NCBI GenBank assembly: GCA_001789515.1
Contig: MFZT01000037.1
Coordinates: 1-14,644, forward strand
Reading direction: 5' to 3'
Source: Candidatus Roizmanbacteria bacterium RIFCSPHIGHO2_02_FULL_43_11
GTDB lineage: Bacteria; Patescibacteriota; Microgenomatia; UBA1406; HO2-37-13b
DNA: 14,644 nt
Below are positions 9,075 through 13,513 of the stretch, one piece after another. A program made the position numbers and the translations under genes. The notes below the pieces were generated by a model that saw nothing but the letters and a program-made list of their open reading frames with translations, had not been told where the DNA came from and did no database searches. The number at the start of each line of letters is the position of its first letter. Positions within the stretch are counted from its first letter, which is position 1.

Positions 9075-9764
9075 CTAGTCTATGGTAAAAGTTATGATTA
9101 CATCAAGAGATTTTCCCTGAGCAATCAAGTCTGGCCCAACAATGGCGTTTAGATGCAAGTCTGCGGCTGTGCCGGCGTCAATTGCGCCTCTCTGTGTTCC
9201 TTTTTCTAAACGGATTTTTCCAAATGCAGCAAGCTCAGAAAGTGAGATCTTGCTATCAGGGATTGTGCCATCTATGCCATCAACTGTGGTTGCTGTAAAA
9301 GGCTGGCCATTTGCAGCCTGTTTGGCAAAATACTCGGTATCTGGTACGCCAAGAAGAGCGGTCGTAAGATTGATAGTCGATGAGTCACTGCCACTGCTTC
9401 CACCAAACCGGAAACCTGTTCCCACGTTGTTAAAAATGATATTTTTTGCAAGATCTGCATCACCTGTGTAGCTGAACTGAATATCCAGATGCTGAGCATT
9501 CACTGAACCAGCGTTGTATACCTCAATTCTGCTTTGTGGCAACTGAGTACCAGGTACCAAATTACTCCCATCCCAACTGTCGGAAATAGCTGCCTGTTGT
9601 GTCTCATTTGTGTCTGAAAGCACAACCATCATGGTACCGGTGCTCAAAGTATTATTCGAAGAAGTAGCAGTACTTGTAAAATAAGCTCCGGAAAATCCCC
9701 CAAACCCTATTAGAAGCCCCAACATAACAATAGTAGATACAATAATGCCCTTTTTTTTCTTCAT
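9075..9764 (-). CDS. CalY/TasA-like secreted fibre subunit (camelysin family)
   Basis: This 229-aa protein has an N-terminal signal peptide (KKKK, then a hydrophobic stretch to about residue 27). The signature following it, GAYFTSTATSSNNTLSTGTM (about 26-45), marks the TasA/CalY family. Members of that family are exported, cleaved by the SipW-type signal peptidase and assemble into surface or biofilm fibres in Bacillus. The remainder is rich in Thr/Ser/Asn/Gly and beta-strand patterns with no cysteines, as expected for an extracellular beta-sandwich. The SipW-like peptidase gene lies 66 nt upstream, reproducing the sipW-tasA/calY arrangement. A strong Shine-Dalgarno sequence (AAGGGGGTG, 9770-9778) 5 nt from the ATG fits high expression and fixes the start. 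A fibre role in this organism is inferred from the family. Confidence 0.85.
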   Translation of the reverse strand: MKKKKGIIVSTIVMLGLLIGFGGFSGAYFTSTATSSNNTLSTGTMMVVLSDTNETQQAAISDSWDGSNLVPGTQLPQSRIEVYNAGSVNAQHLDIQFSYTGDADLAKNIIFNNVGTGFRFGGSSGSDSSTINLTTALLGVPDTEYFAKQAANGQPFTATTVDGIDGTIPDSKISLSELAAFGKIRLEKGTQRGAIDAGTAADLHLNAIVGPDLIAQGKSLDVIITFTID

Positions 9765-9830: not shown

Positions 9831-10133
9831 TCAGGCAGATGTGAAAAAAATATGAAACATCCGGCCGAAAGGCAAAACGAAACATACTTTTCCAATCACA
9901 TCCTGCTTAGATATATGAACCTGATCAGGTGTGCCATTTGCGTCGCCTTTTGTTATGATCGTGCGAGCTGTCTCCAGTGCTCTGTGAGTTACGATAGTAT
10001 CCTGTCTTTTAAATGTGATGATATCACCGGATTTGACATACCGCGTAGGACAAGTAAAGACCACATCTCCCTTAAACAAAGAGGGCCGCATTGAACTGGA
10101 AGCGATAATAAATGCACTGATAAACCCAAGCAT
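9831..10133 (-). CDS. Short SipW-type (Ser/His) signal peptidase I
   Basis: This 100-aa protein is predicted to cleave signal peptides of exported proteins, most likely the CalY-like protein encoded just downstream. The catalytic Ser is in SSSMRPSL (about 12-19). The family GD motif is in LFKGDVV, the SPase D-x-I-T-F region is in SGDIITFKR, and the His that replaces Lys in SipW/ER-type enzymes is in VTHRALE. A TKGDANGTPD motif matches the conserved G-D-x-N-x-x-x-D box. It is much shorter than B. subtilis SipW (about 190 aa). Only about 12 hydrophobic residues precede the Ser, and the C-terminal membrane segment is almost absent. An in-frame TAG 12 nt upstream of the ATG rules out a longer version in this frame. 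No Shine-Dalgarno sequence is seen. Confidence 0.8.
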   Translation of the reverse strand: MLGFISAFIIASSSMRPSLFKGDVVFTCPTRYVKSGDIITFKRQDTIVTHRALETARTIITKGDANGTPDQVHISKQDVIGKVCFVLPFGRMFHIFFTSA

Positions 10134-10212: not shown

Positions 10213-10243
10213 ATGGGAATTATCACTCCGAATCTCAATTTAC

Positions 10244-10294
10244 CAGTTCACCTAGTTAAAACTAGTTATAACTAGTTCACCTAGTTGTAACTAG
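10244..10294. repeat. About 10-bp tandem repeat with five phased CTAG motifs
   Basis: CTAG occurs at 10252, 10262, 10272, 10281 and 10291 (first base), spaced 10, 10, 9 and 10 bp. The units are variants of CTAGTT followed by 3-4 bases. Within them lie a perfect 18-bp palindrome (10260-10277, AACTAGTT-AT-AACTAGTT) and a 13-bp direct repeat AGTTCACCTAGTT (10245-10257 and 10274-10286). A further degenerate unit (CCAGTTCAC) starts at 10244. The last unit contains the sortase stop codon. It is a candidate multi-site operator or structured 3' end. Confidence 0.7.
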
Positions 10295-10935
10295 TAGTTT
10301 GAAACAAGCTTCGCCGTCACTAAATACCGCTGCCATGTTGTTCCAGGGGGCCAGCATGTCATCAAGGTAAGTGTTTGCAAGTTCCCTTTTTGCAAATACT
10401 CTACTGAATCCGCTGGCACTTTTTTTGCGTCTATAACTGAGTATCGATATTTATCGCCTTTGTAAAAAATGTAGATATCATCATCTTTTTGCAGCTTGGT
10501 CAAAAGGTAAAAAATGGCGTTGTATCGGGTAGCTGCATAGAAATCAACGGCAGAATGTGCAAATAGAAAGACATTGCCATTTTCACCTGGTAGGGCACTC
10601 CCTTTTGCGTGAGCGACCCCTTTTGTCAAAGCCTGTTGATACACCTGTGGATCTTGAGGATCAATATCTGGGACAACAATTGCGTTTGCTGAAATTTTCG
10701 GAATCACAATGCCAAACTCCGAGCTTACAGGAGTGACGACTTCATTACCAGGGTGTTTTTCCACAACTGCTCCAGCTCCTTTATCGGAATAGATATAGCG
10801 TAACTCCTGCTTAATGATTGGCGCATAGATAAAAAGCCCAAGAATAAGGCCAGCGGCAATGAATAGAGAACCGGCATCTGTAAGTTGACGACCAAGTCGC
10901 TTCTGCTTAGTGTTTTTTGCGTGTGTAGATGGCAT
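10291..10935 (-). CDS. Sortase (class D/E-like) transpeptidase
   Basis: This 214-aa membrane-anchored cysteine transpeptidase would cleave LPxTG-type signals and attach surface proteins. A basic N-terminus (about 1-18) and one membrane helix (about 22-40) precede the sortase fold. The catalytic His is in FLFAHSAVD, the Cys in TLMTCWPPGTT and the Arg in the following TTWQR, four residues after the T-T. The C-W-P-P-G-T spacing resembles class D/E enzymes. The start at 10935 is chosen because it gives a normal basic N-terminus. It overlaps the upstream surface-protein gene by 29 nt, whereas an ATG at 10977 would overlap by 71 nt. The overlap implies translational coupling with its probable LPATG substrate. 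The stop codon lies inside the phased CTAG repeats. Confidence 0.9.
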   Translation of the reverse strand: MPSTHAKNTKQKRLGRQLTDAGSLFIAAGLILGLFIYAPIIKQELRYIYSDKGAGAVVEKHPGNEVVTPVSSEFGIVIPKISANAIVVPDIDPQDPQVYQQALTKGVAHAKGSALPGENGNVFLFAHSAVDFYAATRYNAIFYLLTKLQKDDDIYIFYKGDKYRYSVIDAKKVPADSVEYLQKGNLQTLTLMTCWPPGTTWQRYLVTAKLVSNY

Positions 10936-13513
10936 ACCCAACAAGTATAGCGATGGCAAGGGCTGCGAGCAACCCAAGGTTTTTGGTTGTGAATAACTTC
11001 TCTGTTACTGAACCAAGTACTCCGGGTGTCGTTTCCTCCTTCTGCACAACTTCTTCCTGGGGTGTTGGGTTTTCACCCTCTGCAGGTGCAGTTACTTGAC
11101 TCTCTCCAGAAGCAACCGTTTGTGCGCCTGTACCCAGATTATTTCCTGCAAAGCCTGTCGCAAGTGTGCTGGTAGAACTGCTCGATGTGGTAATAATGAC
11201 GGCTTTATCACCGATAGGATCAGAAGCATTTCCCTGTCCATCAATGGCACGAATGACATAGTAGTAGGTCTTGTTGCAGTCAGGAACAAAATCGGTATAA
11301 CTGCTCTCTTGATTTGGACCAATAGAGAGAGTCGCAACGCGTGTTGAGGGTTGCATGGTAAATTCAACGACATCGCTTCGGTACACTTCAACTTTCTGTG
11401 TAAGACCATCATTTGCTGTTCTAAACGCGATCTTATTTTCGCACCCACTTATGTTACTGCGAGAATATGATGAAGGCTTTTCTGGTCGCTGATTGCTGTA
11501 ATTTACACTTACGCTATTGCTCTCCACAGCATCACCTCCTGCAATCGCAATGGTTTTGAACTGATATGTTCCCTGCGGATCAAGCAAAGAGCTGTTAACA
11601 AGGCATTTCCCACTATCCCCTCCTGATTTGAGATTCATATCAGAGCTGAACTGAATGAACATCCCGTCTGATGGGGATTTTTTGTAACACTTAACTGTTA
11701 TAGACCTTCCTTGCTGGTCAAGAGCAACAAAATTAATATTGAAATCAACTTTGCGTACAGGTGACTCAGGTTCTTCAATGCGGATGAATAAAGACGCTGC
11801 ATATGTTTGTGTTGCACCGGCAACAAGGATAAGGGTCGAAGTGGCAACTATTGCAAAGAGCTGCTTTGCATAGCGTCTGATCAGACTTTTCTTTTTTTGC
11901 ATGTCACGTCCGGCAAATACTAGACCAAGACCAAAAGTAACTAAGAGGCCCGCGAGAATTGTCCACATAGAATTTGCCCCTGTTGCAGGAAGAATATTCC
12001 CTATTGTTACACCAAGAACGGCAGATGCAGATTGTATTTCCACAATGTTGATGACGGCCCGATCAGGTTCTGGGGTGCTCACAACTTTGACTTTTGTTCC
12101 AACATAATTGATATCCACATACCCAGTTGGCTCTGCAAGTGCAAGAATATTCGAACTTTCTTCTTCGTTTGAGGTGCCCTGTGCCCATGCAAGATCAGGA
12201 TAGATGCCATCATCGGTGCCACTTCCTATCTTTGCGATATAGGTAAGTGTGACAACCTCCCCATCAGTCATGTCTCCAAGATTCCACATACCAGGAGAAG
12301 CGTATGTTGGCTCGGTTGTGGTCCCTGCACCTTTTAGATCTCCCCGCGTGGATGAAACTGATGTCCATGTTCCAGCTTGGTAGGCAAATTCATGAGGTGG
12401 GAGGTCTGTGACAATTACTCCTTGTACCGCACTATGACGGGCAGTGACTTTGAGGGTGTAGGTCACAGTATTCCCGATTACTTCTTCCGTGGGGAATGAA
12501 TCATTATATTTCTGAATAAGCAACTCTGGCTTATTACGCACCTCAGGTGTGGGAGACGTGGTAGGGCTTGCTGAGGGCGAAGATGTTGGGGTCTCGGTGG
12601 GAGTTGGCGTGGGAGTAGGTGTGCCGCTTGGTGACTCTGTTGGGGTTGGTGAACCAGTCGGTGCCTCTGTAGGAGTCGGCGTTGGTCTTTCAGAAGGCTC
12701 TGTGTTATCATTGCCAAAGTTGGCTTCATCGCAGTCGTTGACGTAATCAATGACTCTCCTGTGACACTGCTGACCTTCTTCCTGGGAGCTTGGTGACTGG
12801 TTATCTATTGCTTGTCCAGGATATGTCTGTGCCCAACCATCTTTTTGAACTTCACACAAGTAATATGTCCCGATTGATAGACCGTTAAAGGTGTATCGAC
12901 CATCTCCGTTTGTGGTTGCTTGGGTAATAAAATCCCAGTTTGCATCGTAAAGACGGATAATCCAGCCTTCAAGGAAGGATTCTTCAGGATGAATAAGATC
13001 AAAACGACCATTGCCATTCATGTCATAATATTTTCTTCCAGTTATTTTAGAAGGTAGCTCACGTGAAGGTGTTGGAGTAAGAGTTGGCGAAGGAGTCGGG
13101 GTGACTGAAGGAGGTTCCTCAACTTCCCGAGTCTCAACCCTGAATGACGCGTGCGAAATATCTTGACATGTATGAGAATCTGGCCCAATCTTTTGTGCTG
13201 ATGCAAATGAACTTCCCATCCCGTTTGCTTGCCAGCAGCCGTTATTTCCATCTGACATAAAATTTACTTTGTTCTGACCACCTTTTATACACACTTCTGC
13301 AACATAGTACCCCTCGTTTGCTTGATATGACGGATTTGTACCATCAACCTTGACCCAATTACTTGTCTTTGGGCAGGTCTCATCCTGGGAAGCAAAAGCC
13401 TTTTGGGTAATATCCAGGAAAGGATAAAACAGATTAAAAATCAACGAGACTGATAGAAAGAACGAAACAACCTTTGCAAAGCGTCTTTGATGTTCTCTCC
13501 GGTTTTTCCTCAT
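10907..13513 (-). CDS. Double surface protein: SdrD_B/DUF11-like LPATG protein fused in frame to a second signal-peptide surface protein
   Basis: This is one 868-aa reading frame with two complete-looking export modules. Part 1 (1-537) has a basic signal peptide (1-41, AFA/S), then a Cys-containing domain (about 45-125) and a Pro/Thr linker (135-150). An SdrD_B-like domain (about 155-232, DMNGNGRFD loop) follows, then a 50-residue Pro/Thr/Ser-rich stalk (272-323), a DUF11-like domain (about 327-465), LPATG (508-512), a membrane helix (about 516-534) and Arg. Part 2 (538-868) restarts with MQKKKSLIRR, a hydrophobic stretch and TQTYAA, which is a textbook signal peptide. It continues with an Ig/FN3-like domain (about 675-755), a Ser/Thr/Glu/Pro linker and a C-terminal helix with RKKH. 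The start at 13513 is chosen for the signal peptide; 38 upstream residues are unlikely to be translated. The sortase gene overlaps the 3' end. Confidence 0.8.
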   Translation of the reverse strand: MRKNRREHQRRFAKVVSFFLSVSLIFNLFYPFLDITQKAFASQDETCPKTSNWVKVDGTNPSYQANEGYYVAEVCIKGGQNKVNFMSDGNNGCWQANGMGSSFASAQKIGPDSHTCQDISHASFRVETREVEEPPSVTPTPSPTLTPTPSRELPSKITGRKYYDMNGNGRFDLIHPEESFLEGWIIRLYDANWDFITQATTNGDGRYTFNGLSIGTYYLCEVQKDGWAQTYPGQAIDNQSPSSQEEGQQCHRRVIDYVNDCDEANFGNDNTEPSERPTPTPTEAPTGSPTPTESPSGTPTPTPTPTETPTSSPSASPTTSPTPEVRNKPELLIQKYNDSFPTEEVIGNTVTYTLKVTARHSAVQGVIVTDLPPHEFAYQAGTWTSVSSTRGDLKGAGTTTEPTYASPGMWNLGDMTDGEVVTLTYIAKIGSGTDDGIYPDLAWAQGTSNEEESSNILALAEPTGYVDINYVGTKVKVVSTPEPDRAVINIVEIQSASAVLGVTIGNILPATGANSMWTILAGLLVTFGLGLVFAGRDMQKKKSLIRRYAKQLFAIVATSTLILVAGATQTYAASLFIRIEEPESPVRKVDFNINFVALDQQGRSITVKCYKKSPSDGMFIQFSSDMNLKSGGDSGKCLVNSSLLDPQGTYQFKTIAIAGGDAVESNSVSVNYSNQRPEKPSSYSRSNISGCENKIAFRTANDGLTQKVEVYRSDVVEFTMQPSTRVATLSIGPNQESSYTDFVPDCNKTYYYVIRAIDGQGNASDPIGDKAVIITTSSSSTSTLATGFAGNNLGTGAQTVASGESQVTAPAEGENPTPQEEVVQKEETTPGVLGSVTEKLFTTKNLGLLAALAIAILVGYAIYTRKKH
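11891..11906 (-). other. Junction of the two surface-protein modules: TGACATG plus A7 slippery run
   Basis: Part 2 of the surface protein begins with an in-frame ATG at 11902. An out-of-frame TGA (11906-11904) sits one base upstream (TGACATG). Directly after the ATG comes A7G (11898-11891), which in the reading frame is A-AAA-AAG, the classic bacterial slippery heptamer. A +1 shift there meets TGA after two or three codons. The site could separate the two proteins by reinitiation or slippage, or mark a one-base indel. Confidence 0.5.
12560..12700 (-). repeat. Low-complexity GGNGTN repeat encoding the Pro/Thr/Ser stalk
   Basis: Imperfect repeats of GGAGTNGGNGTN on the plus strand encode alternating Thr-Pro and Ser-Pro residues (about 272-323) of the surface protein. 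A shorter version occurs at 13065-13105. Such tracts are prone to length change by slippage and usually form an extended cell-wall spanning stalk. Confidence 0.65.

Follow-up and report, generated by a model that had tools for sequence, protein, structure and literature searches.

A predicted surface polyprotein of Patescibacteria, with a sortase motif and a second signal peptide inside one reading frame

The locus in Candidatus Roizmanbacteria

The DNA considered here, called the window throughout, is a stretch of 14,644 nucleotides from Candidatus Roizmanbacteria bacterium RIFCSPHIGHO2_02_FULL_43_11, whose genome is a 0.71 Mb draft in 51 contigs, 87% complete. An ordinary LPXTG surface protein has a signal peptide, exported domains and an LPXTG motif followed by a helix and a basic tail, with a dedicated sortase gene adjoining. 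The window encodes a protein that is built in this way up to the basic tail, which, unlike that of the ordinary protein, leads on in frame to another signal peptide and another protein (Table 1). An earlier note on this DNA had read a single frame running from a signal peptide through LPATG and a second signal peptide to a C-terminal anchor, with a sortase gene overlapping its end. Both parts of that reading hold: the frame is open over its whole length, and the overlap amounts to 29 nt if the sortase starts at its ATG.

Table 1. Positions in the window of the fused gene, its parts and the overlapping sortase gene.
Feature	Position	Strand	Basis
Fused gene, adhesin half and anchored half	10907-13513	minus	single uninterrupted frame, 868 codons
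First signal peptide, residues 1-41, ending ...KAFA|S	13391..13513	minus	sequence; cut site by eye
SdrD_B-like domain (residues 161-252), then Thr/Pro-rich linker	12530..13033	minus	PF17210, E 3.8e-10
DUF11 domain, residues 342-455	12149..12490	minus	PF01345, E 1.5e-7
LPATG sortase motif, residues 508-512	11978..11992	minus	sequence and profile models
Helix 1, stop-transfer helix of the sorting signal, residues ~517-535	11909..11965	minus	sequence
Basic loop RDMQKKKSLIRRYAKQ, predicted cytoplasmic, residues 536-551	11861..11908	minus	16 residues: 7 K/R, 1 D
Second, internal signal peptide, ending TQTYA, residues 552-572	11798..11860	minus	sequence
Anchored half, exported part: Ig/FN3-like pair, four conserved Cys, linker; residues 573-845	10979..11797	minus	authors' reading of sequence
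C-terminal membrane helix, residues ~846-863, then TRKKH	10925..10978	minus	sequence
Sortase gene overlapping the end of the fused gene	10291..10935	minus	PF04203, E 8.9e-23; ATG 10935 taken as start

The features of an LPXTG substrate are all present in the window protein: the motif, a hydrophobic helix and basic residues. The NCBIfam LPXTG_anchor model scores 17.2 bits, over its cut-off of 15.9, and Pfam Gram_pos_anchor 17.6 bits, just under its cut-off of 20. This sorting signal is not C-terminal, since 356 in-frame residues follow LPATG. A search of the organism's own genome for other LPXTG genes, with Leu codons of the form CTN and S, P, T or A in the third place of the motif, found the window motif as its sole match. 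Many members of the family have a VLG motif twice, once closely preceding LPxTG and once ahead of the second half's C-terminal helix (in the window at 11992-12020 and 11000-11030).

For the second half, Pfam gives no match with the window copy and weak, scattered ones with 36 other members; a 37-row profile compared with the PDB gave chance-level matches only (E 0.41 and 0.77). Its sequence pattern reads to us as a probable pair of Ig/FN3-like domains. The four cysteines are kept in 69, 69, 67 and 67 of 69 main-clade rows, a count made without the 16 rows of families f7, f12, f16, f19, f23, f27 and f37, and this conservation suggests disulfides. The idea that a fixed lysine makes the second half an acceptor for sortase (by an isopeptide bond) is unsupported: no lysine column is invariant, so the half is unmarked as an acceptor. 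The best column, at position 111 of the domain, has K in 73 of 85 copies and R in that of the window.

The window sortase was searched for domains from 10932, that is without the Met of the ATG at 10935. It matched seven models and rose above the cut-off for one, the general TIGR01076, remaining under every NCBIfam class cut-off; class C (pilin) is nearest by score, yet reaches 57.8 bits against a cut-off of 160. Three sortases, a full signal peptidase I (173 bits) and five penicillin-binding transpeptidase matches are encoded in the genome, making both processing enzymes and a wall acceptor plausible.

Other features lie around these genes. Right behind the sortase stop, at ~10240-10295, short AACTAG-like repeats form a run of several stop codons. 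At 9831-10133 (minus strand) there is a small signal peptidase of the SipW/archaeal type with a short N-terminus (TIGR02228, 68.9 bits), and the signal peptidase match extends across an upstream TAG. The adjoining gene at 9075-9764 (minus strand) encodes an apparently exported protein with, in our reading, the look of TasA/camelysin; it has a weak TIGR04087 match (E 0.092) and no Pfam match. A similar-looking pair lies divergently upstream of the fused gene in genome G003 (L046:681-1979). In G019 (L045:4200-7715, minus strand), a 1171-aa protein combines signal peptidase S26, fn3 and lamin-tail domains, a protease-adhesin fusion near the polyprotein operon.

Fused and split forms across Patescibacteria

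The two halves were searched for separately in 57 genomes, the window's own among them. The second half is present in 10, and in nine of these the halves share one frame (the window's genome, G003, G009, G011, G018, G019, G020, G025 and G026); in the tenth, G036, the locus is cut by a contig end. The first half alone has matches in 38 of the 57, often over its low-complexity linker or a repeat only. Wider profile searches detected the second half in 13 of 83 genomes of the order, 65 of 372 of the class and 47 of 379 of the phylum; the three sets overlap, those for class and phylum being drawn evenly from larger groups. The DNA around strong matches was then taken, and a domain model detects the second half in all 87 loci so obtained. 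The counts leave out weak or partial matches (E > ~1e-19) in 16 genomes (G105, G229, G377, G430, G473, G481, G485, G507, G521, G525, G542, G618, G623, G683, G721 and G731) and four extra pieces of G658 on other contigs.

The 87 loci belong to 85 Patescibacteria genomes. In 49 of them (47 genomes, G284 and G714 having two each) the halves are fused, 36 hold an adjacent gene pair, and two, G036 and G658:C5, are truncated by contig ends. The halves therefore lie in one frame in several genomes, and the window's gene is no lone exception among two-gene homologues, the outcome on which the earlier note had let its reading depend. Among the named relatives, Candidatus Roizmanbacteria have the fused gene and Candidatus Daviesbacteria the split pair; NCBI taxonomy places both in the Microgenomates group of Patescibacteria. 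Both states occur in families f10, f19 and f84, the fused state only in 11 families (two of which, f2 and f64, have one truncated locus apiece besides) and the split state only in eight.

In all 36 split loci the upstream frame stops at the point corresponding to the junction, with a tail of motif, helix and basic residues. Its motif is LPx[TA]G in 34 (LPAAG in three of them), LPSSG in one and masked in one. From the upstream stop to the next start the distance is -23 to +5 nt, most commonly -8; these gaps are approximate, as the start was picked by rule as the first ATG in a range. The split homologues show each half to be, by itself, a gene for an exported protein. The sortase lies directly downstream on the same strand in 40 of the 49 fused, 28 of the 36 split and both truncated loci, and upstream on the same strand in eight fused and seven split ones; one fused and one split locus have no sortase within the fetched stretch. 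Adhesin and second half are closely linked in 36 of 36 split loci, mostly with a sortase as well, which suggests a role for the second half in support of the adhesin, such as that of a membrane partner.

Over evolution the fused gene has alternated with a pair of closely spaced genes that usually overlap. On a quick tree of the domain, a partly resolved one with 27 of 82 inner branches starred, seven changes of state are needed, against a mean of 27.4 for shuffled labels (minimum 21, n=200). A careful tree needs eight, and bootstrap trees (300 of 1000 examined) need 7-10; these are unrooted counts, in which joining and splitting are not distinguishable. Fusion was gained or lost at least seven times on the trees examined, which suggests either a repeated advantage or an easy neutral path.

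Signals and selection at the junction

A motif of the form [LM]PxTG is found in 42 of the 49 fused loci (41 by pattern, plus the MPATG of G357). In the remaining seven, VLGAATG takes its place in four (L116, L118, L119 and L137, of families f7, f12, f16 and f37) and LPAAG in three f19 forms (L120, L126 and L130); both are perhaps other sortase motifs. For the loops that follow, a script took the stretch of lowest hydrophobicity between the helices, so that their limits are approximate. As drawn, they are 5-18 residues long and contain 208 K/R against 16 D/E over 409 residues; the charge is net positive in 48 of 49, G354 being the sole exception, with a net negative loop.

Just before the second domain, [AV]xA occurs in 43 of the 49 fused loci, against 19.4 expected when the same residues are shuffled. 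As controls, the ends of helix 1 have it in 6 of 49 and protein ends in 14 of 85. The looser pattern [AVTSGILC]xA, the only one of the two that fits the window's TYA, is a weak test: it occurs in 49 of 49 fused loci (40.9 expected) and 36 of 36 split ones (34.1 expected), and the two controls match it as well, in 23 of 49 ends of helix 1 and 47 of 85 protein ends. Among the split genes even [AV]xA stands out less, at 33 of 36 against 21.6 expected by shuffling. The predicted cut lies 45-64 residues (median 53) past LPxTG. The out-in-out topology and the two predicted cutting signals described in the earlier note for one protein are, in short, widely kept across the fused loci.

The junction is under purifying, coding selection. 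Over nine close pairs of fused genes, not all independent because some genes were used in two pairs, the junction has a pN/pS of 0.47 (single pairs, 0.07-0.75) and the domain one of 0.18. Given this selection and a feature order that recurs in 49 loci (47 genomes), the fused frame is not a product of chance.

It is likely, with a probability that we put at about 0.8, that the gene encodes a bacterial surface polyprotein: one translation product that yields two secreted units through predicted cuts by sortase and signal peptidase I. One translation event would make the adhesin half together with the smaller, membrane-anchored half. The Sec system would export the first half until the LPATG helix stops transfer and brings the chain back to the cytoplasm, where the short basic loop would lie. 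The second signal peptide would then reopen export for the second half, which would stop at its own C-terminal anchor. Signal peptidase I would cleave at the AxA site, and a sortase, most likely the overlapping one, would cleave LPATG and link the adhesin to an acceptor, probably peptidoglycan; a small two-helix piece would be left over after both cuts. A fuller version, to which we give somewhat less than even odds, describes a dual-cut family: from each chain, sortase and signal peptidase would produce an adhesin together with a membrane-anchored partner for it, the halves would re-associate, and fusion would provide them in a 1:1 dose with newly made partners side by side. What the sequences themselves show is the single frame with its conservation, the recurring signals, selection on the junction, the gene order and the presence of genes for both enzymes. 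Besides both cuts, then, we infer the wall acceptor, the equal dosage and the re-association of the halves.

The best-surviving alternative, an unlikely one, has a single cut. Sortase would free the adhesin and leave the rest as a three-helix membrane protein, or signal peptidase would cut alone; the three-helix remainder is a possible stable topology, and both cuts are predicted from motifs. Against a single cut, [AV]xA is kept in the fused loci at the frequency given above despite variable helix sequences, and in the split genes the corresponding stretch forms the N-terminal signal peptide, 33 of 36 having [AV]xA.

Less probable still is that the fusion is largely a side effect, with synthesis of the second half still beginning at an internal codon (Met538 in the window) and read-through incidental. 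Split genes mostly overlap, at a commonest spacing of -8 nt, and in 27 of the 49 fused loci the wider junction stretch contains an in-frame ATG. A Shine-Dalgarno-like match of at least 4 nt is present in 10 of these 27; background ATG codons have one in 88 cases of 381, and split genes in 21 of 36. The count takes the best of several ATGs and so favours the junction and the split genes. However, the wider stretch has no ATG in the other 22 of 49, the loop region is without ATG, GTG or TTG in 20 of 49, and Met538 is not conserved among the first nine sequences. With coding selection running across the junction as well, an internal start of the second half is mostly rejected. That a sequencing or assembly indel joined two genes in the window's genome, as a single indel could do because most split relatives overlap out of frame, has next to no probability, being already refuted at family level by the same open junction in 46 other genomes, spread over 14 families with fused forms, and by the clustering of the two states on the tree (7 changes against a shuffled mean of 27.4).

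Known systems and the meaning of the fused form

Cleavage of polyproteins by membrane processing enzymes is, to our knowledge, a practice of viruses that bacteria rarely share. The FbcH cytochrome b/c1 precursor is a bacterial polyprotein cut by signal peptidase, its internal signal peptide giving rise to two proteins. It resembles the polyprotein proposed here in that an internal signal peptide divides one translation product into two proteins, and it comes without sortase, LPXTG or surface proteins. Two marks of a polyprotein cut by signal peptidase I are found in the present family, namely an exported domain preceded by an internal signal peptide and its AxA-type site ([AV]xA in 43 of 49 fused loci) and the occurrence of the parts as separate genes elsewhere (36 of 87 loci). 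In the literature searched for the word polyprotein together with sortase, signal peptidase and LPXTG, no such bacterial protein was found; there, the word stands in a reference list alone, for a virus.

The nearest precedent for the motif itself is provided by the M26 IgA1 metalloproteases and Zmp proteins of streptococci. Passages on these enzymes describe an LPXTG that is N-terminal, not C-terminal, in a chain that continues into a large exported domain and is cut 56 residues farther on (PMC9637739; also PMC7939560). That distance is similar to the predicted 45-64 residues (median 53) here. In contrast with M26, where LPXTG lies near the N-terminus of the enzyme, the motif here ends a large adhesin (~500 to 2,500 aa) before a small anchored protein; the fused family also differs in its attached sortase gene and its two-gene relatives, the comparison being one of layout, not of sequence. 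Neither an M26 protease domain nor a G5 domain is matched by Pfam in the window protein up to an E-value of 0.1. The earlier note knew of no standard example of the arrangement. This stands for the in-frame second secreted protein and needs a qualifier for the rest: an internal LPXTG followed by a cut is not new, as the passages on M26 IgA1 proteases show (PMC9637739). What is new, as far as the literature was searched, is that a sortase substrate and a second complete secreted protein share one frame, and that this state recurs in evolution.

Sortase family fam000526 is described as widespread in the Candidate Phyla Radiation and near ubiquitous in Microgenomates; the section on that family mentions neither sortase substrates nor a joined substrate gene (PMC6744442). 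The parts of the sortase literature on the Candidate Phyla Radiation/Patescibacteria that were covered make no mention of such a joined protein. Routine annotation can miss the fused form: homologue P0048, for one, goes under the name of LPXTG anchor protein only.

The family amounts to a natural experiment, in which joined and separate forms of the same pair exist with several switches between them. Two questions become testable with it: how the export machinery deals with a stop-transfer sorting signal that has a new signal peptide behind it, and whether an internal motif can be used by sortase. In Patescibacteria, whose ways of attaching to other cells are little known, adhesin, anchored partner and sortase form a conserved three-part surface module.
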